DNA of 64,000 nucleotides from Bacteroidales bacterium (GTDB lineage Bacteria; Bacteroidota; Bacteroidia; Bacteroidales; UBA12170), in the NCBI GenBank assembly GCA_016744655.1, contig JADGDY010000004.1, positions 1 through 64,000 on the forward strand, in the 5' to 3' direction. How positions within the stretch are numbered: the first letter of the stretch is position 1; each line of letters starts with the position of its first letter. Of the stretch, positions 260 through 22,984 are shown piece after piece. Made by a program: the position numbers and the translations under genes. Under the pieces are notes generated by a model. That model had not been told where the DNA came from. It saw only the letters and a program-made list of their open reading frames with translations, and made no database searches.

Positions 260-1726
260 CTATTCTATAATTAGCTTTCTAACAGATATTCCATTAGGTG
301 TATATATTTTAACTGAATAAACGCCTCTTTTATAAGCAGATGTATTGATATCTAAATATCTTTTATCTGCTATGTAGTTCTTTACTATTTTACCTAATTG
401 ATCATACATTTCAATTTTATTAATTGTGGTACCCACAACAATTGTCGTATGTGAACTGGCTGGGTTTGGGAATATTTGAACCTTTTCTTTTGAAAGGTTT
501 TTTATTCCTGTGGTAGGATCTAAAGCCGTAAAAACGGTTGAAACCTCACTCCCAAAATCTCCATTAATTTCCATAATTTCTTCACCACTTTCTGTGTCTA
601 ATAAGCGAATAGTCCCCTCTCCATATCCACAACAAATGCCATCGCCTGCTTGGTCATATATATTCCATGTAATACATGAGGATTCTTCAACAGAAATATC
701 AAAAGTTTGTAATTCAGATGTTGTTACAGAACCTATTGGAAGTTCAAAAAGTAAATTTCCATTTTGATCATACATATCGAAACCTGTTTCTGCAGGATAG
801 TCATCTGGTAATAATTCTACAGTAATACTGAGTTTAGATTCTATAGTTGATTGTGCAGCAGAAGCGGTTTGTTCATCATTCTCTGAGTTAGAATCACCAT
901 CTACCACAATTTGGAATTTAAGTTCAACTTCCGACGGAATATCTGTTAGAGAATTAAGGGAGATAAGTTCAGTCTCATAAATTTCTAGGTCACCTACATA
1001 TTCAAAGGTAGACACTATAGACCCATCCAAAATGGTATTAATGGTAGCAGAAGTCAGGTTTCCACTAAGTCCTAGGTTTTGAACACTAACTTGAATATTA
1101 TGAAGTCCATCTCCACAATAAACATCTGGGCATATCACATTCGTTATAGCAGCATCAATTTGTTCTGTAGCCTCTGGACAATCTCCCATGAATTCGTGCA
1201 ATTCTTCAGCAGTCATATAACCATCCTGATATTTATCTTCATAAGTAAGTCGCGATGGACAAATCACATAAATTGTTGGAATATAAGCAACATTATAAAG
1301 TCCTCCACAAACAGTTCCATTTGGAGGATTATCAGGATCTGGTGCATCATTGATGGTTGGGAATGGAACATTCTCAATCCAATTACCTTGAGATCCACTT
1401 CCTCCGGTTAGTTCATCCATACCAGTTGAATTGTCGGTCTCAATCTGAAATATCATAACTTCATTAGTACCATCGGGGCCATATAATTCCCACATTTCAT
1501 CTAATATACCATTGTTATGATATGTCCAACACGGACCACACCAAGTTGTAAAAAAATCGATAATGACTACTTTACCATCATCTAAATATTCATAAAGGTG
1601 ATGTTCGTTACCATCTAAATCGGTAGCCACGAAATCGGGGCCAATGGAACCATCTGGTAATTGAGCTTGTAAGTTTAAACTAATAGCGAATAGTAGGCTA
1701 AGCAATAATGTGTAGCATTTTTTCAT
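260..1726 (-). CDS. Secreted thioredoxin-fold protein with T9SS sorting domain
   Basis: 488 aa. An N-terminal signal peptide of about 21 residues (ending LNLQAQ) leads into a redoxin/TlpA-like domain with the active-site motif WCGPCW near residues 62-67, so both redox cysteines are present. A middle beta-rich part (about 190-400) carries several further cysteines. The last 75 or so residues start with IFPNPASS and end KLIIE, a type A sorting domain, so export to the cell surface by T9SS is expected. A role as an extracellular disulfide oxidoreductase is inferred from the motif. It lies downstream of the TPR-HTH regulator at 2036-3736, with a 309-bp gap holding direct repeats and no gene, and is followed by a clear terminator. 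The same regulator-then-secreted-thioredoxin order occurs again at 3.9-8.5 kb. Confidence 0.85.
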   Translation of the reverse strand: MKKCYTLLLSLLFAISLNLQAQLPDGSIGPDFVATDLDGNEHHLYEYLDDGKVVIIDFFTTWCGPCWTYHNNGILDEMWELYGPDGTNEVMIFQIETDNSTGMDELTGGSGSQGNWIENVPFPTINDAPDPDNPPNGTVCGGLYNVAYIPTIYVICPSRLTYEDKYQDGYMTAEELHEFMGDCPEATEQIDAAITNVICPDVYCGDGLHNIQVSVQNLGLSGNLTSATINTILDGSIVSTFEYVGDLEIYETELISLNSLTDIPSEVELKFQIVVDGDSNSENDEQTASAAQSTIESKLSITVELLPDDYPAETGFDMYDQNGNLLFELPIGSVTTSELQTFDISVEESSCITWNIYDQAGDGICCGYGEGTIRLLDTESGEEIMEINGDFGSEVSTVFTALDPTTGIKNLSKEKVQIFPNPASSHTTIVVGTTINKIEMYDQLGKIVKNYIADKRYLDINTSAYKRGVYSVKIYTPNGISVRKLIIE

Positions 1727-1782
1727 CTTGTTTAATTTTGATTATTAATATTGTTTTAGGTTAAAAACCAGTAACAATCCAT

Positions 1783-1799
1783 ATTGATTGTAAATCAAT
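1783..1799. promoter_or_regulatory. Small palindrome upstream of T9SS thioredoxin gene
   Basis: ATTGATT-gta-AATCAAT, a 7-bp perfect inverted repeat 57 bp before the start at 1726. It could be a regulator site or a leader hairpin. No good TAnnTTTG element was found for this gene, so its position relative to a promoter is unknown. Confidence 0.25.
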
Positions 1800-1964
1800 T
1801 CTATTTATCTCTCATATGAATATGTGATTGGTTTATGTCATTTTGATATTGTCATTAAAGATTTGCACTGTTTTTAAATAGAATGATTACTTCAACTATT
1901 TTGAAAGCATTACTATTCAATTTCTTTCGACAAAAATGACTTTAGAATGGAAAAAACCCAAAAT

Positions 1965-2017
1965 AATGGATAGGACAAATTTGGGAAGAGTGAATAAATG
2001 ACCCAGACAAAGATTGG
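1965..2017. repeat. Two direct repeats with 32-bp period
   Basis: AATG-N5-GACAAA followed by a G-ending segment occurs at 1965 and again at 1997, exactly 32 bp apart, between the regulator gene at 2036-3736 and the secreted protein gene at 260-1726. Three helical turns of spacing would place bound proteins on one face of the DNA. The repeats are imperfect, so this is suggestive only. Confidence 0.3.
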
Positions 2018-2035
2018 ACATAAAAGAACATTGTG

Positions 2036-3736
2036 CTATATATCTGATAGATAGCTGAATATTCCAATATCTCTCCCAGTGATGTTTAATTTCTTACGGA
2101 GGCGATATCTGGCTTTCTCAACTGACGATGGGTTTTGACCTGTAAGAGCAGAAATCTCTTTTGTGGTCATATTCATTTGTAGAAAAGCACATAACCTTTT
2201 CTCATTATTGCTAAGATTTGGGAAACGAGCAGATAGTTTTTGATAAAAATCGCTATTCACATTATTAAACCGAACCTCAAATTCTGCCCAAACTTGGGCA
2301 TCTTGATCGTACTCAAGGTTACGAATAACAGTTTCAATTACATCTTGGTTTTCCTTTTTGAGTCTAGATTTTTGCTCTTTTAAATAATCTATAATATCTA
2401 GTTTCTTTTTATTTAACCTTATCATATTTAGCAGAAAGGAGGTTAGTTCTCTTTCTTTGGTCTCTAATTCCCTTTGTAATACTATACCTTCGAGTTTGTT
2501 TTTTGCAATCTTATGTTTCTGTTTTAGGTAAAGCTGAAATAAAAATGCCAGAAAAACAACAAGGATTCCTAATGAGGCATATAATAGAATTTTTTGCTTT
2601 TGCTGTTTCCATTGCTTTGCCTGTTCAATCCTATTGTTTTTAAATACAAGTTCAAGTCGTGTTAGCTCACTAAAATTGCGTTTCTTTTCTAAACTATCTT
2701 TGTGGAGAACATAGTCATCTTGATATTTCATAGCATCAATATAATGGCCCAGACCTTTATGGCCTAAATACAATCCATAAAAGCCATACATTCGTATTTC
2801 TAACCAATGATACCTAGTTGACAATAGCATTACATTTTCAAAATAAGGAAGTGCTTTTTCATATTTCCCCATCTTATTATATAAATCGCCAATTAGCAAA
2901 AGGGAGTTGGCATACAATTCCACATCCTCAGTAGAATCCATGACTTGAAGCAAATCTACTTGCAGCTTTTCTGAAAGTACAAAGTCATTATTTATCTTCT
3001 CAATGTGAGCTAAGTTCATGAGATTTTTTATATAATAATCCCAGTTTCTTATCCTTTTATTGATGGTAGCCGCCTGCTGCAGAAGGTAGCGGGCACTGTC
3101 GTATTTTTGCTGTTCGATATAATAAACTCCAATATTATTAAATTCACGGGCAATACCCACGCTATCACCAATTCCTATGGAAATATCAATTGAATTTCTA
3201 AGATATTTTACGAATGTTTTTTCATCATTAACACGGAATAAAAGTCCAATTTTTGAGTTAATAGCTGATTCGTTAACCTGATCACCAGACTGCTGGTAAT
3301 ATTTCAAACTTCTAGTATAATAATTAAAAGCTTGATCAAAATTATTAAACTCTTGATATAGCTCTGCAATTTCCTTGAACAGTTTTGCTTGTGACGAAAG
3401 AACTTCAATATCTTCAAATTGCTCTATATGATTTGAAACAAAAGTTAAGGCTTCCTCATATTGATAATTATTTCGTAAGATATAGATATAATTGGCTGCT
3501 GCTTCTACAATTCCTTTCTCATAATTGAGGGCTTCAGATAATAAAAATAGACTATCTGTTTCTTTTAGCTGTGATTCTACTTTGAGGTTCTCTACGGGGA
3601 TACAAGCATTTAGACTGTCAATTAAATCTGTATTTATACTAATCTTCTTTAGATTTGAGGAATCGCGTGTGCAACCAAATCCCATAAAAAACAGAACGGT
3701 TGCTACAAAGACAAAATAAAACGATCTAGTACCCAT
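2036..3736 (-). CDS. Membrane-anchored TPR / helix-turn-helix regulator
   Basis: 566 aa. A hydrophobic N-terminus (about residues 5-21, followed by Cys22, a poor lipobox) suggests a signal sequence or anchor. Residues of about 60-360 are tetratricopeptide-like repeats rich in Tyr and Asn. A single membrane segment lies at about 383-404, then a charged coiled coil (about 405-475) and a C-terminal LuxR-like helix-turn-helix (about 505-552) with NEKRLCAFL, MTTKEISALTG and ARYRLRKKL. The layout places a TPR sensor outside the inner membrane and the DNA-binding domain in the cytoplasm, a known Bacteroidota arrangement; the signal and target are unknown. The paralogue at 6870-8519 has the same architecture, and both precede a secreted thioredoxin-fold gene, the probable target. 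A TAnnTTTG element lies 33-40 bp upstream of the ATG. Confidence 0.8.
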   Translation of the reverse strand: MGTRSFYFVFVATVLFFMGFGCTRDSSNLKKISINTDLIDSLNACIPVENLKVESQLKETDSLFLLSEALNYEKGIVEAAANYIYILRNNYQYEEALTFVSNHIEQFEDIEVLSSQAKLFKEIAELYQEFNNFDQAFNYYTRSLKYYQQSGDQVNESAINSKIGLLFRVNDEKTFVKYLRNSIDISIGIGDSVGIAREFNNIGVYYIEQQKYDSARYLLQQAATINKRIRNWDYYIKNLMNLAHIEKINNDFVLSEKLQVDLLQVMDSTEDVELYANSLLLIGDLYNKMGKYEKALPYFENVMLLSTRYHWLEIRMYGFYGLYLGHKGLGHYIDAMKYQDDYVLHKDSLEKKRNFSELTRLELVFKNNRIEQAKQWKQQKQKILLYASLGILVVFLAFLFQLYLKQKHKIAKNKLEGIVLQRELETKERELTSFLLNMIRLNKKKLDIIDYLKEQKSRLKKENQDVIETVIRNLEYDQDAQVWAEFEVRFNNVNSDFYQKLSARFPNLSNNEKRLCAFLQMNMTTKEISALTGQNPSSVEKARYRLRKKLNITGRDIGIFSYLSDI

Positions 3737-3768
3737 AAATATATTTTGAAGCCTTTTACTTCGATTGA

Positions 3769-3776
3769 CAAATATA
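3769..3776 (-). promoter_or_regulatory. Promoter -7 element for TPR-HTH regulator
   Basis: The minus strand reads TATATTTG, a perfect match to the Bacteroidota TAnnTTTG element, 33 bp upstream of the ATG at 3736. It lies between the previous gene's terminator region and this start. Confidence 0.5.
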
Positions 3777-3822
3777 TTTATTTTTTGTAGGGTTTGATCA
3801 TACTAACCTTTTCAGTTGGAAC

Positions 3823-3858
3823 AAAAAAAAGAGGCTATCCAAAAATGCGAATAGCCTC
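3823..3858 (-). terminator. Rho-independent terminator after the Omp28-like T9SS gene
   Basis: On the minus strand GAGGCTAT pairs with ATAGCCTC over a 12-nt loop (arms 3851-3858 and 3831-3838) and is followed by eight T residues (complement of 3823-3830). It sits 22 bp beyond the stop at 3880. Confidence 0.85.
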
Positions 3859-3879
3859 AACAAACTCTAACCTAAAACT

Positions 3880-6480
3880 CTATCTAATTATTATCTTTTT
3901 CACTATTATTTTATTTAATGTATAAACTTTAATAAAATAATATCCTGATTCATATTTGCTAATATTGATCTTGCTATCTAATCCACTTGTTTTTTGTTCT
4001 AGTACTAACTGACCTGTAGCATTAAATATTTGTAGGTGTTTCATTTCTTCTAAAGCGCAAATCCTTACAACATCTGTAGCAGGATTTGGATAAACACTAA
4101 GTTCGTGTGATGTTTGCAATTCTGTCATACCTATAATTAACTCTGTCTTACATGCATTTTCTACTTTCCCATTATTCATATTTATGACCATCCCCACAAC
4201 CTCAATGTGATTGATATCCCAATTTTCATCAATTGTAGTGGTATATTCATAGCTATGAGTTTCTCCTGCACTTATAGTTGCTGGTAAGCTTGAAGGAGTA
4301 CCTACAAAACCACCAAGAATATCTCTAGCTACATCTTGATAAACCATATCTTCAGCAGGTACAGGATCTGGCAAATTCTCATATCCTCCCATTTCTGTAG
4401 TACCTCCTGAATAACTGTTCGATTGATTCCAAGCAGAACCTGTTCCTGTTACTTCATCCTCTACTATTACCGCATTAAATCTGAAGTTTGAAACGCTGGC
4501 TACAAATTCAGCTACCAAGGTAAATGAGAGTTGGCGAGTGTTTTCATTATAGGTTTTATTCTGAATAGTTAATGCTACTGGAGCAATTACTTCTTTCTCA
4601 ATATGGTAAGCATCCTCCATATCTAATGGGTCGGCTATGATAGATCTCCCTACATAAGCATTAGGAAATCCTTGTAAAATAGGTGCAAGGCCTGAATCAT
4701 ATGCAGGAACTGTCATTGGATCGGAATTATGACTTGCAATTCCAATAAATGAATCTGGAAATTCTTCTGCCATATAATCCATATACACATGGCCACGAAC
4801 ACACCATCCACACCAAGTACCAGTTCCTTCTTCAATAAGGACAGTTTTTGTTGGAATATATTCTACCGTACTTATTGTAGTGCTTATATCATCATTATCG
4901 GGATTAGAATCTGGCCCTAAACCATTTCCATTACTGATATGTACACTAATTTCATAAGGCTCCGAAGAAGTGAGGTTAGCAGGCGTAGACAAGGTGAAAT
5001 CGTAGGTGGCAAGTGAAGCAATAGATAACCCTGATAAGGTTTCGGATACAGCACTTCCCCCATTTACTGTATACTCAATATCAATTGAGGTCAGTATTTC
5101 TCCTCCCATATTTTTAATTATTCCAGTAATGTCAACATCACCTACCAATGCATAGTTTGGTAAAGTTAATTCCTCAATAGATACATCGAAGTCAGGAGCT
5201 TGATAGGTTCCAAATATGGCTTCCATAGCATAAGTATTTGCATAATTTCCCCCTGTTTGATCATGCCAAGAATCGGAGTCTACGGAATAGCCCCAACATG
5301 AATGGTCAATATATGGAGTTGAGGTGGTGGCAAGTCCCAAAAACTGATTTCCATCTACTATGCCAATTAAATACTGACCAGGTTCTAAAGTAACCTGAGC
5401 AGGAAATACACCAGTGTATGTTGTATTAGAGGAGGTAATCTGAACATCATTTGTCTGTGCAATAAGATCACCAGGTTCTCCGTCAAACTCATATACTCTT
5501 GCGCATACGGTATTATCACCAGTTTGACAATTGCTCAAGTAAAATGAAACAGCAGTTAAAACATCTTCAGTTGTAACAGTAAATACATTGGCACTAACAC
5601 CGCCAGGTATTCCATTTCCAGTACCGCCAATGACATCACCATTATGTATTGATAAAACAGAGTCTGTAATCTCTATGCTTTTTACTATTGTTCCATTTTC
5701 GGGAAAGGCATCGTCGGCTGCGTTAGCAGTATATGTAAAATCTATTGTTCCAGTTTCTGTAATTGTCAATAAAGGAAAAGTAAAGTCCTCTATGACATCA
5801 GTTCCCATAGGAACTGAGATGGGTAAGTTTTCATCGTATGAAGTTCCCACTGTTAAATTAAAGTTTGTCGCTTCAGTTAGCTCTTCGCCTATGTTTTGAA
5901 CTTGACCTTCAGGTGAAAAGACAGCATGATTTAGGGGCATTTTATAGCATCGCTCAACAACACTTAATATATTGGGTACTAAATCTGGTGCTGATGGTAC
6001 TCCATTAACAACAACTGTTCCTTCAAAATTACCAGTATCAAATCCAGCAGCATCTATGAAAAAACCTATTTCGAAACTGTCTGTAATGCTAGCATCAATA
6101 TCTACTTCTATCCAAAATTCATAAAGCTCATCTGGGCGTATACCACCTTGATAACCTGGGGATTGCTCGAATATCCCTCCCCATGAAATGACTTGACCAT
6201 CTACACCATTTAATATTTCTTCGTTCCAATCTCCAACTTGACCTACTATTTCTGATCCAGTAATGGGCGTAACACCAACGGGAAAAGTCATGGCCAAGGA
6301 ATCACCACTTGTTCCACTGGCTAAAATTGTAAAATTTAGAGTATTATTAGCTCCAGATTGAAAGAAATTCAGGGAGGTGATTTCGCAAGAAATCTCTTTT
6401 GTACCTTTGGATTCAGTATTTTGACCAATTGAAAAATTGGTTAATACTAAGGCAATTAATAATGTAAAAAGCTGTCTCAT
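3880..6480 (-). CDS. Secreted Omp28-like thioredoxin-fold protein with T9SS sorting domain
   Basis: 866 aa. The signal peptide ends near residue 20 (FSIGQ). The first half is beta-rich, with an anchor/CARDB-like segment around 430-540 (DNDD-type turns). An Omp28-related thioredoxin-like domain begins near 545 with GTGTWCGWCVRG, so a CxxC pair is present at about residues 556-559, followed by IASHNSDPM and an AYVGR stretch typical of this family. The C-terminus (YPNPATD to IIIR) is a T9SS type A sorting domain. An extracellular redox or adhesin-like role is plausible, but the substrate is unknown. The gene lies downstream of the TPR-HTH regulator at 6870-8519 and a small ORF at 6524-6712, and ends in a strong terminator. 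Confidence 0.85.
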   Translation of the reverse strand: MRQLFTLLIALVLTNFSIGQNTESKGTKEISCEITSLNFFQSGANNTLNFTILASGTSGDSLAMTFPVGVTPITGSEIVGQVGDWNEEILNGVDGQVISWGGIFEQSPGYQGGIRPDELYEFWIEVDIDASITDSFEIGFFIDAAGFDTGNFEGTVVVNGVPSAPDLVPNILSVVERCYKMPLNHAVFSPEGQVQNIGEELTEATNFNLTVGTSYDENLPISVPMGTDVIEDFTFPLLTITETGTIDFTYTANAADDAFPENGTIVKSIEITDSVLSIHNGDVIGGTGNGIPGGVSANVFTVTTEDVLTAVSFYLSNCQTGDNTVCARVYEFDGEPGDLIAQTNDVQITSSNTTYTGVFPAQVTLEPGQYLIGIVDGNQFLGLATTSTPYIDHSCWGYSVDSDSWHDQTGGNYANTYAMEAIFGTYQAPDFDVSIEELTLPNYALVGDVDITGIIKNMGGEILTSIDIEYTVNGGSAVSETLSGLSIASLATYDFTLSTPANLTSSEPYEISVHISNGNGLGPDSNPDNDDISTTISTVEYIPTKTVLIEEGTGTWCGWCVRGHVYMDYMAEEFPDSFIGIASHNSDPMTVPAYDSGLAPILQGFPNAYVGRSIIADPLDMEDAYHIEKEVIAPVALTIQNKTYNENTRQLSFTLVAEFVASVSNFRFNAVIVEDEVTGTGSAWNQSNSYSGGTTEMGGYENLPDPVPAEDMVYQDVARDILGGFVGTPSSLPATISAGETHSYEYTTTIDENWDINHIEVVGMVINMNNGKVENACKTELIIGMTELQTSHELSVYPNPATDVVRICALEEMKHLQIFNATGQLVLEQKTSGLDSKINISKYESGYYFIKVYTLNKIIVKKIIIR

Positions 6481-19105: not shown

Positions 19106-20329
19106 CTACCTCAACTTATAATGCTTACCAAAATTTCGGTGGCGGGTTTCGTATTGCTCCAGAAGTCTTTCTATTTCGTAATACCAAGCGATATTGTCTC
19201 GCGGAACACTATATTTTGACATATTGTATGGGATTTCATTTTCTATCCTACTGGCATTTTTATCAACAATAGATTCAAAAAGCTCAGGTGCTGCAGCATT
19301 GTAAATTTCTAATTGCCTAGTTATTAGAATATCAAGAAAACCTGCATCACTTTTGAGTACATCATACAATTGTTTCAGGAAGCCATTATATGAAGATTCA
19401 TTTACAAAATGCTTATCATTAGAAGCGGCAAAATCCAAATCATAAAGAAAGAATCGAAACTTCCCATTTGGGCCCACATTATACAATTCTACATTGTTAT
19501 ATGGCCAGTCACTATTCCCTATCAAATCTTCGAAAATAATATAATCGGCAAAGCAGTTTAAATCTATGTTTTCGAGTAAAAATTCAGAATTTCCTGACCT
19601 TACCGCTTCTATTAAACCATCAATAACTTGTTCATCTCCACTCCCAAATTCTAATATTTCTTGTTCATCTCCAGCATGGGATATTTTAAGAATATTTACA
19701 TCATCATTATCCACATTTAATAATTTTCCGAGACTATTGTCATCTTTTTCTGTACGTATATTGAGGAGTCCATAATAGGAGCTATTGAGAAATACATGAA
19801 CAGGCTGGTGATAACTCAATTCTAGATCGAGCCCCAGTTGAATGGCCATATCAGTAAACGAGATGTCTTTTATAAAAGTTCCATAAAAGTCGTTGCCAGA
19901 GTTTCTAAGGCTGATTTTCTTAAGCATATCTAAATTGTGAAAAGGAAGTATTTCATCAACTTGTAGAACAGGGCTTATCAGATTATTTAGCTTCTTCTTA
20001 AACTTAACTTTCAGGCTCTTTAATGGATAAAAAACTGTGGAGGTTCCTTTTATTTTTATTTCTATGCTCTTATTTTTAATTATATTTTTCTGCTGAGAAT
20101 AATATGAAAATTGAGCATCTATTTCAATTGTATCAGCAGGACGCCGCATCATAGAATCTAATAAGAATGAGTCGGCCTTTATATGTATAATATTAAGGTC
20201 GGTTTTAATATTTTCTATAGTTAAAGCCTTAGTGTCAATGTAATGGTAGTTATCGACGCTATATTTTGTACAGGAAACACCATACAAGAATATGAGAAAA
20301 ATGCTAAATAAAATTCCGTACTTAGTCAT
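19106..20329 (-). CDS. CotH-family (kinase-fold) lipoprotein, cassette copy 1
   Basis: 407 aa. The lipoprotein signal ends YGVSC (Cys about 20). CotH-type motifs appear in order: IEIKIKGTST followed by LKSLKVKF, LRNSGNDFYGTFIKD, YGLLNIRTEKDD, and the conserved late block IGNSDWPYNNVELYN then KFRFFLYDLDFA. In the CotH family the fold is protein-kinase-like, and the Asp residues of the late block are metal/ATP ligands; activity here is inferred. The start overlaps the end of the barrel gene by 8 bp. It is a paralogue of the 21120-22346 protein, with near-identical motif blocks. Confidence 0.8.
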   Translation of the reverse strand: MTKYGILFSIFLIFLYGVSCTKYSVDNYHYIDTKALTIENIKTDLNIIHIKADSFLLDSMMRRPADTIEIDAQFSYYSQQKNIIKNKSIEIKIKGTSTVFYPLKSLKVKFKKKLNNLISPVLQVDEILPFHNLDMLKKISLRNSGNDFYGTFIKDISFTDMAIQLGLDLELSYHQPVHVFLNSSYYGLLNIRTEKDDNSLGKLLNVDNDDVNILKISHAGDEQEILEFGSGDEQVIDGLIEAVRSGNSEFLLENIDLNCFADYIIFEDLIGNSDWPYNNVELYNVGPNGKFRFFLYDLDFAASNDKHFVNESSYNGFLKQLYDVLKSDAGFLDILITRQLEIYNAAAPELFESIVDKNASRIENEIPYNMSKYSVPRDNIAWYYEIERLLEQYETRHRNFGKHYKLR

Positions 20330-20906
20330 GATTTCTTTTTTTAAAAAACTGTGGATTAACCAGCACTCCCAAACTAATATGGTTGGTATAATTTCTAAAT
20401 AGGAATGAATCGACTTGTTCGCTAATAATTCGGGAATAGGATAATTCCATAGCCCACCTTTGATTAAAATGATGAATAAGACCTAGGTTTAGGTTTAAAC
20501 GTGCATTATAACTCTTGTTTAAAGCTACATCTTTAATGGCCCTATAATCTTGAATAGCAATCCCAGAATGAACACTCCATTTTGAAAGAAACCGATATTG
20601 AATTTCAAGAGGAATATCATAATTATAGCTATAGCCACTGACTTCGGTATCGTTGAGTTCAACTATATCATGATGCTGATGTATCCCTGGTGTAAAGCTC
20701 ACAGAAAATCTTTTTCCGAGGTATAATTCATAACCAAAACTAAAATACATGCCAATAGAATGTGTGCTATTTACCTTATACTTCCATAGTTGAAGCTCCT
20801 TGGTATTATAACCAAAGCTACTTCCTAAGCCTGTTATCCACTTCCCTTTTGCTGATGCTTGAAAAGTAAAGGCAATTAATATTCCTATGATGATGAATTT
20901 CCTCAA
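20322..20906 (-). CDS. Small outer-membrane barrel-like protein, cassette copy 1
   Basis: 194 aa starting at a TTG codon; no ATG fits, and the signal peptide (to about residue 19, QASAKGKW) aligns with that of the paralogue at 22336-22926. The mature part has eight or so amphipathic strands with Tyr/Trp/Phe, like an OmpX/porin-family beta barrel, and conserved blocks YNARLNLNLGL and FRNYTNHISLG. It probably sits in the outer membrane beside the CotH lipoprotein encoded by the overlapping gene. Function unknown. Confidence 0.7.
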   Translation of the reverse strand: MRKFIIIGILIAFTFQASAKGKWITGLGSSFGYNTKELQLWKYKVNSTHSIGMYFSFGYELYLGKRFSVSFTPGIHQHHDIVELNDTEVSGYSYNYDIPLEIQYRFLSKWSVHSGIAIQDYRAIKDVALNKSYNARLNLNLGLIHHFNQRWAMELSYSRIISEQVDSFLFRNYTNHISLGVLVNPQFFKKRNHD

Positions 20907-20950
20907 TACACTCCTCTATGTTCCCGATTTATTAATGAATTTTGGGGCGG

Positions 20951-20958
20951 CAAATGTA
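20951..20958 (-). promoter_or_regulatory. Promoter -7 element of cassette copy 1
   Basis: The minus strand reads TACATTTG, matching TAnnTTTG, 45 bp upstream of the barrel gene start. It lies in the 213-bp gap between the two cassettes, so copy 1 can be transcribed independently of copy 2. Confidence 0.45.
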
Positions 20959-21119
20959 ATTATTCGTGGCAAATATTCTACAATAAAATACACGAAATGA
21001 TGAATTCAGCGTATGAACTGATTTGATTGAGGAGTATTGTTTATTTATTTTTCGAACTAATTTATTAATCCTATATTTTTGAATCCTAAAACTTTCATTT
21101 AAACTTGAAAAAATATTTC

Positions 21120-22346
21120 TCAATCCAATTCATAATACCATTTAAACAACTTACGGCGGGTTTCAAACTTTTCTTCAAGCCTTTGTAGGTCGTAATACCA
21201 CATGATTTCATTTTTGGGTGTTTGGTATTTGGCTATATTATAAATGATATCTTTTTCAATTTTATGTGCGTTTTTATCCAGAATGCTTCGGAATAAACTT
21301 ACTGTAGCTTTCTCATAGATATAGGCTTGTCTTTCTTTCAGTAAATTGAAAAAGTGAGTATCTTCTTTGAGGGCCTCATATAGTAGTTTTAAAAACCCAT
21401 TATAGGAGGATTCAGCTACAAAATGTTTATCTTGATCTGCGGCAAAATCCAAATCGTATAAAAAGAATCTGAATTTTCCTTTTGGACCCACATTATAGAT
21501 TTGAACATTGTTATATGGCCAATCGTGATTCCCTATATAATCCTCGAAAATGATATAATCTGCAAAGCAATTAAGGTCTACGTTTTCCAAAAGAAAAGGT
21601 GTGTCTTTTCGACGAACTGCATCAATGAAATTTTGAATAACAAGGGAATCACCACTTCCGAAACTTATTATTTCTTGACCATCTCCTGCATGTGAGATTT
21701 TTAAAATGTTCACGTCATCATTGTCCACATCTAATAACTTTCCTAAGCTATTGTCATCTTTTTCTGTTCTAATATTGAGAAGGCCATAGTACTTCTGATT
21801 GATTAAAACTTGTACGGGTTTGTAGTAACTCAATTCCATATCAAGTCGTAATTGTATGGCCAATTCAGTATAACAAATGTCTTTTACAAAGGTTCCAAAA
21901 AAGTCATTACCAGAGTTCCTCAAACTAATTTTTTTCAAGACATTTAAGTAATGATTGGGGAGAGCATCCTCCACTTGAATAATGGGTATAATTTGGTTAT
22001 TATGTTTCTTAATAAACTTAACTTTAAGACTTTTTAAATCGTAAAATACAGTGGAGGTTCCTTTAATTTTTAATTTAATGTCTTTATTACTAATGATGGG
22101 TTCTCCTTTTGAATACATATTGAATGAAGCATCTATTTCGATTTCTTCGTGAGCAAATGTCATCATATTATGAAATAATGAAGAATCGGCTTCAATATGA
22201 ATGATATCTAATTGAGTATCTATATTGTTTAAGCTTACATCTGAAATATCAATTTGTTCTGAGGTTTCCACCCTATATTTTGAACATGAAGAGCTAAAAA
22301 ATAATAAGGCGAAAAAGAAGTATAAGAGCCATTTTTTAATCATCAT
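21120..22346 (-). CDS. CotH-family (kinase-fold) lipoprotein, cassette copy 2
   Basis: 408 aa (a second Met at residue 2 is equally possible). The lipoprotein signal ends FFSSSC. It has the same ordered blocks as the 19106-20329 protein: IKLKIKGTST, LKSLKVKF, LRNSGNDFFGTFVKD, GLLNIRTEKDDNSLGKLL, IGNHDWPYNNVQIYN and KFRFFLYDLDFA. The two proteins align end to end, so this is a tandem duplication. The start overlaps the barrel gene end by 11 bp, as in copy 1. A surface-located phosphotransferase or structural role is possible but unproven. Confidence 0.8.
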   Translation of the reverse strand: MMIKKWLLYFFFALLFFSSSCSKYRVETSEQIDISDVSLNNIDTQLDIIHIEADSSLFHNMMTFAHEEIEIDASFNMYSKGEPIISNKDIKLKIKGTSTVFYDLKSLKVKFIKKHNNQIIPIIQVEDALPNHYLNVLKKISLRNSGNDFFGTFVKDICYTELAIQLRLDMELSYYKPVQVLINQKYYGLLNIRTEKDDNSLGKLLDVDNDDVNILKISHAGDGQEIISFGSGDSLVIQNFIDAVRRKDTPFLLENVDLNCFADYIIFEDYIGNHDWPYNNVQIYNVGPKGKFRFFLYDLDFAADQDKHFVAESSYNGFLKLLYEALKEDTHFFNLLKERQAYIYEKATVSLFRSILDKNAHKIEKDIIYNIAKYQTPKNEIMWYYDLQRLEEKFETRRKLFKWYYELD

Positions 22347-22926
22347 TTTGCCCTTTCTTTAAATTGAAACGATAGCGCATACCAATAATGAGGTGGTTAG
22401 GATAGTTACGAAGAAGAAAAGCATCTCTTTGATCACTAAGAATAGTTGAAAAGCCTGCTTCCATAGACCAATGATAATTGAAGTGATACGATAAGCCTAG
22501 GTTTAGGTTTAATCTGGCATTATAGCTTCTTTCTAAAGCTACCTCTTCGATCACCCGATAATCTTGAATGGAAATCCCAGCATGAAAGCTCCAATTATCT
22601 AAAAAATAATAGTAGATTTCAATAGGTATATCAAAATTATAACTGAATATTTCAGCATCGATATCGTTAATTCCAACCTCATCGTAATGTTGTTGAAAGC
22701 CAGGAAATATTCCAATGGAAAACCTTTCAAACAAGGTCCATTCGTATCCAAGCTTAATATATATTCCGCTGGAGAAAGTCTTTTCTACAGAATAATCCCA
22801 AATATATAATTCGGTAGGATTGTATCCCCATGTACTTCCCAGGCCAACATTCCATTTTCCTTTTGCAGAAAGTTGCAAAGCCATAAATGTGAGAAATAGG
22901 AAGAGTATGATTTTTTTAAACTTCAT
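22336..22926 (-). CDS. Small outer-membrane barrel-like protein, cassette copy 2
   Basis: 196 aa. The signal peptide MKFKKIILFLFLTFMALQLS is followed by AKGKWNVGLGSTWGYN, matching AKGKWITGLGSSFGYN of copy 1. Repeated amphipathic strands and the block RSYNARLNLNLGLSYHFNYHW suggest an eight-stranded outer-membrane barrel. It is the first gene of the cassette, with a TATTTTTG promoter element 51 bp upstream. No family name could be assigned. Confidence 0.7.
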   Translation of the reverse strand: MKFKKIILFLFLTFMALQLSAKGKWNVGLGSTWGYNPTELYIWDYSVEKTFSSGIYIKLGYEWTLFERFSIGIFPGFQQHYDEVGINDIDAEIFSYNFDIPIEIYYYFLDNWSFHAGISIQDYRVIEEVALERSYNARLNLNLGLSYHFNYHWSMEAGFSTILSDQRDAFLLRNYPNHLIIGMRYRFNLKKGQNDD

Positions 22927-22976: not shown

Positions 22977-22984
22977 CAAAAATA
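22977..22984 (-). promoter_or_regulatory. Promoter -7 element of cassette copy 2
   Basis: The minus strand reads TATTTTTG (TAnnTTTG), 51 bp before the ATG at 22926. The remaining divergent gap up to 23282 (356 bp in all) contains no gene; it is A/T-rich with one hairpin next to the xdhB start. Confidence 0.45.

Follow-up and report, generated by a model that had tools for sequence, protein, structure and literature searches.

A duplicated barrel–CotH gene pair of Bacteroidota that may phosphorylate envelope targets

A gene pair encoding a small outer-membrane-like beta-barrel and, directly after it, a CotH-fold lipoprotein lies twice in tandem in the genome of a Bacteroidales bacterium, within a stretch of 64,000 nucleotides that was analysed as a whole (hereafter the window). 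Judged from sequence comparison, the pair is a conserved, co-inherited and rare unit that has been duplicated whole. Taken together with structural models, this points to a real, uncharacterised module of Bacteroidota that may phosphorylate a target in the cell envelope. Extracytoplasmic phosphorylation in bacteria is poorly understood, including the origin of the phosphate donor. A small conserved two-gene unit, found also in Algibacter lectus DSM 15365, a named type strain, makes both envelope phosphorylation by CotH proteins and the role of the barrel testable.

Layout and duplication of the cassettes

The original prediction placed two barrel-then-CotH pairs side by side at positions 19106-22926, with overlaps of 11 and 8 bp between the genes of each pair. 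All four open reading frames (ORFs) are present as claimed, and their coordinates agree with both overlaps (Table 1). The longer overlap makes translational coupling of barB and cotB likely. Cassettes B and A are co-directional and separated by 213 bp, with efflux-pump genes (ACR_tran, HlyD-type) on their 3' flank and a divergent molybdopterin-binding oxidase gene on their 5' flank.

Table 1. Positions of the tandem cassettes and their candidate promoters in the window, and of PycTM-type genes in four related loci
Feature	Position	Strand	Description
Candidate -7 box, cassette B	22977-22984	minus	TATTTTTG; weak, without TTG at -33 spacing
barB	22336-22926	minus	196 aa, ATG start, signal peptide, small outer-membrane beta-barrel (predicted); first gene of cassette B
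barB/cotB overlap	22336-22346	minus	11 bp, from coordinates
cotB	21120-22346	minus	408 aa CotH-fold lipoprotein; lipobox Cys21, putative catalytic Asp275 and metal Asp298
Candidate promoter, cassette A	20951-20983	minus	TTG-N22-TACATTTG; TTG at expected spacing
barA	20322-20906	minus	194 aa, TTG start, small outer-membrane beta-barrel (predicted); first gene of cassette A; barB paralogue
barA/cotA overlap	20322-20329	minus	8 bp, from coordinates
cotA	19106-20329	minus	407 aa CotH-fold lipoprotein; lipobox Cys20, putative catalytic Asp274 and metal Asp297; cotB paralogue
PycTM-type gene, L086	5922-7163		~410-420 aa, C-terminal PycTM (Pycsar effector); between CotH and DUF2490
PycTM-type gene, L093	3517-4749		as above
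PycTM-type gene, L032	9227-10492		as above
PycTM-type gene, L033	9215-10480		as above

CotA and CotB share 64% identity over 387 aa in a gap-free alignment (504 bits), BarA and BarB share 52% over 194 aa (E 1e-72), and DNA identity is ~71% across the aligned stretches, so the duplication is not recent. In both the CotH and the barrel tree the two window copies (winA and winB) are sisters with full support, which indicates that the whole unit was duplicated in this lineage to give the tandem, as had been proposed.

Each cassette had also been credited with its own TAnnTTTG promoter. A matching motif does precede both barrel genes, 58 bp before barB (TATTTTTG) and 52 bp before barA (TACATTTG), but only cassette A has the accompanying TTG, and the motif is no more frequent on the minus strand of the window than chance would give (47 observed vs 45 expected). 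Separate promoters for the two cassettes are thus plausible but weak.

Two other identities were considered and rejected for the locus. A phage or plasmid origin was set aside because no relative of the CotH proteins was found in viral contigs or in plasmids, and a defence system because PADLOC had no match for the window proteins CotA and BarB. With 5.2 Mb at a completeness of 87%, the window's own assembly (G000) exceeds three congeners, which measure 2.9-3.1 Mb at 94-98%; this is either an unusually large genome or a bin that includes foreign contigs.

Families and folds of the encoded proteins

Both lipoproteins match the Pfam CotH family (PF08757) over profile positions 1-320 of 322, CotA with 91.1 bits and CotB with 67.4 bits against a curated cut-off of 23.8 bits. 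A structural model of CotB (pLDDT 84.3) superposes on Bacillus cereus CotH (5JD9/5JDA) with a Z-score of 30.4 and an rmsd of 2.6 over 322 residues; the next fold families are PI4K, HipA and Fam20, at Z about 10-12. Profile alignment to 5JD9 pairs the Asp of a DWPYNN motif and that of a YDLD motif with two CotH aspartates 23 residues apart. These residues, Asp275/Asp298 in CotB and Asp274/Asp297 in CotA, have the same spacing as D228 and D251 of Bacillus subtilis CotH, to which they were matched by motif and spacing, and in the B. subtilis enzyme the substitutions D228Q and D251A abolish catalytic activity (PMC7821199). Gly96, Lys105, Arg143, Asn144, Asp148, Asp275, Asn280, Asp298 and Asp300 are invariant among nine diverged members, and in wider alignments Asp275 and Asp298 remain invariant or nearly so. 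The fold match and the presence of both catalytic aspartates in the alignment bear out the kinase fold of the original prediction, against which a lack of ATP/metal residues would have spoken.

The N-termini of CotA and CotB are hydrophobic and close at a lipobox-type Cys (Cys20 and Cys21, respectively), with lipobox and signal peptide judged by eye, and the lipobox Cys is shared by all nine members that were aligned. In Bacteroidota, an acidic stretch after the lipid Cys serves as a surface-export signal. Several relatives have such a stretch and the window copies have no clear one; their outward exposure is therefore tentative, which counts against our best explanation.

The barrels are assigned less specifically. 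BarB passes the Pfam OMP_b-brl cut-off of 28.7 bits with 36.6 bits, and BarA falls just below it with 27.0 bits. The AlphaFold2 model of BarB (pLDDT 79.6) has eight main strands, and the features that define outer-membrane beta-barrels (a signal peptide and a closed antiparallel barrel of at least eight strands) are all found in this prediction. In size, predicted strand number and Pfam match the window barrels resemble OmpA/OmpX/OmpW-type proteins; they differ in belonging to no specific family of these, with TM-scores of about 0.4-0.6 at 10-16% identity. They do form one family with seven other barrels (hhalign 99.1%, E 5e-19, 185 columns). Membership of DUF2490 was rejected (hhalign probability 5%, and Pfam returned no DUF2490 match), as was a relation to FadL, suggested by a 68-residue phmmer match and an NCBIfam match and taken as generic barrel likeness.

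Conservation and co-inheritance of the pair

A scan of genome contigs with the two CotH proteins as queries found four full-length relatives at 34-36% identity, in a Cryomorphaceae MAG (L032), an Owenweeksia MAG (L033), a Flavobacteriales MAG (L034) and A. lectus (L035), each with a barrel of 185-204 aa directly upstream of CotH. Genome searches contributed G550, G349 and G684, and a search of the phylum contributed G776 and G875; G683 and L034, with contigs of equal length and identical profile scores, were counted once. This gives 11 cassettes in 10 genomes, all in the order barrel then CotH, with gaps from -11 to +3 bp. The co-occurrence search suggested with the original prediction thus upholds the linkage, since the same barrel family lies directly upstream in all nine other genomes (overlap or gap -4 to +3 bp). 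The five later genomes were found by CotH profiles that excluded their sequences, as did barrel profile A4, which their upstream ORFs match at E-values of 6e-49 (G550), 4e-25 (G349), 1e-49 (G684), 2e-18 (G776) and 1e-16 (G875). The counts are not fully independent because G550, G683 and G684, three of the ten, are members of a single genus. Although the genes around it vary, the pair is conserved in several families and two classes.

The unit is also rare among the genomes sampled, which were draws from larger groups. At E 1e-50 it turned up in 3 of the 395 genomes drawn from the class and again in 3 of 395 drawn from the phylum, the window's own genome being included each time, and in the order draw (295 genomes) close relatives of either gene occurred in that genome only. 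No further members came to light in the order of G483 or in the family and order of G349. When the barrel was searched for across the class, strong matches were confined to the three genomes in which the CotH subfamily also occurs; as these three were all part of the profile, the result is informative only in its lack of matches in other genomes. Around roughly fifty other CotH ORFs, no barrel of the window family lay within flanks of 1.5 kb, a short reach beyond the longest genes.

A barrel-only search of the order returned the window's genome and one match at 6e-7, an orphan barrel. At the orphan locus (L107, G141:C19, 11319-11897) the protein belongs to the window family (1e-23) and has no CotH gene downstream, and the contig ends 365 bp upstream of it. 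The link between barrel and CotH is therefore not absolute.

Supporting joint inheritance, pairwise identities or distances of CotH proteins and barrels are strongly correlated (r = 0.92, Mantel p 5e-5), also when winA is left out. The main groups of the two trees agree, with L087 placed differently. Between distant members the barrels have diverged to 13-25% identity and still adjoin CotH.

In some lineages the pair is part of a longer operon. The order is barrel-CotH-PycTM-DUF2490 in L086 and L093, with a metallophosphatase gene added in L032 and L033, and barrel-CotH-DUF2490 in L034 and L087; in L035, L112 and L113 the pair has no adjoining DUF2490 match. These labels come from Pfam for part of the proteins and from a DUF2490 profile or sequence likeness for the others. 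The L086 copy of the PycTM-type protein, the one analysed with both Pfam and PADLOC, has in addition a very weak HD match. Among the relatives, the Pycsar effector models of PADLOC were matched only by this PycTM-like neighbour.

Possible functions and related systems

Our preferred reading, to which we give about as much credence as doubt, is that of a duplicated two-gene outer-membrane module whose CotH lipoprotein kinase acts on an envelope target. In the mechanism that we infer, the barrel would be inserted in the outer membrane, as its signal peptide and predicted eight-stranded fold suggest. Judging from its lipobox, the CotH protein would be exported and receive a lipid at the N-terminal Cys, which would anchor it in a membrane, probably the outer membrane. 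Given the short overlaps and inheritance as a unit, the two products most likely act together, perhaps in direct contact, and the kinase fold and catalytic residues in model and alignment suggest that CotH most likely transfers phosphate. Its target would lie outside the cytoplasm and may be a protein of the envelope or a glycan of the surface, by comparison with Bacillus CotH, which acts on spore-coat proteins. Speculatively, the two paralogous pairs may have different targets. A more detailed version is rather doubtful. In it, a dedicated eight-stranded barrel would hold or gate the CotH lipoprotein kinase, surface proteins or glycans would be phosphorylated, and in some lineages a PycTM-type inner-membrane protein, a second barrel (DUF2490) and a metallophosphatase would extend the system.

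Known kinases of this fold resemble the window proteins in part. Bacillus CotH shares the fold and the two equally spaced catalytic/metal aspartates, but the window CotH is only 13% identical to it, is a predicted exported lipoprotein of a Gram-negative phylum and is paired with a barrel; no gene for a coat-protein substrate was recognised near the window unit. Fam20 kinases of the secretory pathway are extracytoplasmic and have the same broad fold as the CotB model (Z about 10), but they are eukaryotic, about 11-13% identical and without a barrel partner.

The main rival to an envelope kinase module is a surface-polysaccharide module, because other CotH genes occupy polysaccharide-related loci; CotH would phosphorylate a sugar or control polymer export, and barrels of the window family and DUF2490 would be export or anchoring pores. 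Fam20 kinases include a sugar kinase, which lends this reading some support, as does a VTC-CotH-Wzy_C gene order in Bacteroidota. Pel clusters include CotH, polyphosphate polymerase and DUF4956 (PMC7112168), and loss of a CotH-like pel-cluster gene in Streptococcus intermedius lowers Pel and aggregation (PMC12345266). VTC/DUF4956/CotH loci, which include the Pel-linked CotH genes of Gram-positives (PMC7112168) and C55 of the window's own genome, resemble the window unit in that a secreted CotH is encoded in an operon related to the envelope. The window unit differs from them in its barrel family, which is not DUF2490, and in having no recognisable VTC or DUF4956 gene next to it or its nine relatives in the ORFs read around these ten cassettes. 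Nor was a glycosyltransferase gene recognised in these ORFs, which speaks against a polysaccharide module. Barrels of eight strands, as predicted here, are moreover usually too narrow to export polymers. We regard a polysaccharide role as possible but tentative.

It is unlikely that CotH here is a non-catalytic binding or structural lipoprotein, with the barrel as its anchor and the fold and residues kept for other reasons. Kinase activity in this subfamily is a prediction, and fungal CotH proteins are described as host-receptor-binding invasins; yet nine residues, Lys105 and both aspartates among them, have stayed invariant across nine diverged members, and the aspartates are invariant or nearly so in wider alignments. 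Less probable still is that the genes are neighbours without joint function, sharing an operon through accident of descent and duplication. The orphan barrel fits this explanation, and the proposed contact between the proteins is itself inferential. Against it stand the overlapping frames, the correlated divergence and the persistence of the pair between differing flanks in several families and two classes, even where the barrels have drifted furthest apart.

The original prediction knew of no described system built on this pair. None was found in the open-access literature searched, and to that extent this part stands; more broadly, the window pair is not the only setting in which CotH adjoins an outer-membrane barrel, since the same genome also has a DUF2490-CotH-DUF4956 locus. 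There (L096, G000:C55:1-12000, positions 1669-4552), a DUF2490 barrel, a CotH protein of 457 aa and DUF4956 are encoded in a row. On another contig of this genome (L097, G000:C97, 7145-8634), a VTC polyphosphate-polymerase-like gene is followed by a DUF2490 barrel. In G349, a distant CotH lipoprotein-like gene (L088, G349:C140, 4194-5994) has an overlapping small barrel-like gene downstream, not upstream, and its product falls outside the window family (hhalign 1% against the window barrel profile). The VTC-CotH-Wzy_C (O-antigen ligase) order was seen at L064 (162-3952) in a Bacteroidota genus, where Pfam was applied to L064 only, and L061, L065, L066 and L069 have a similar gene order.
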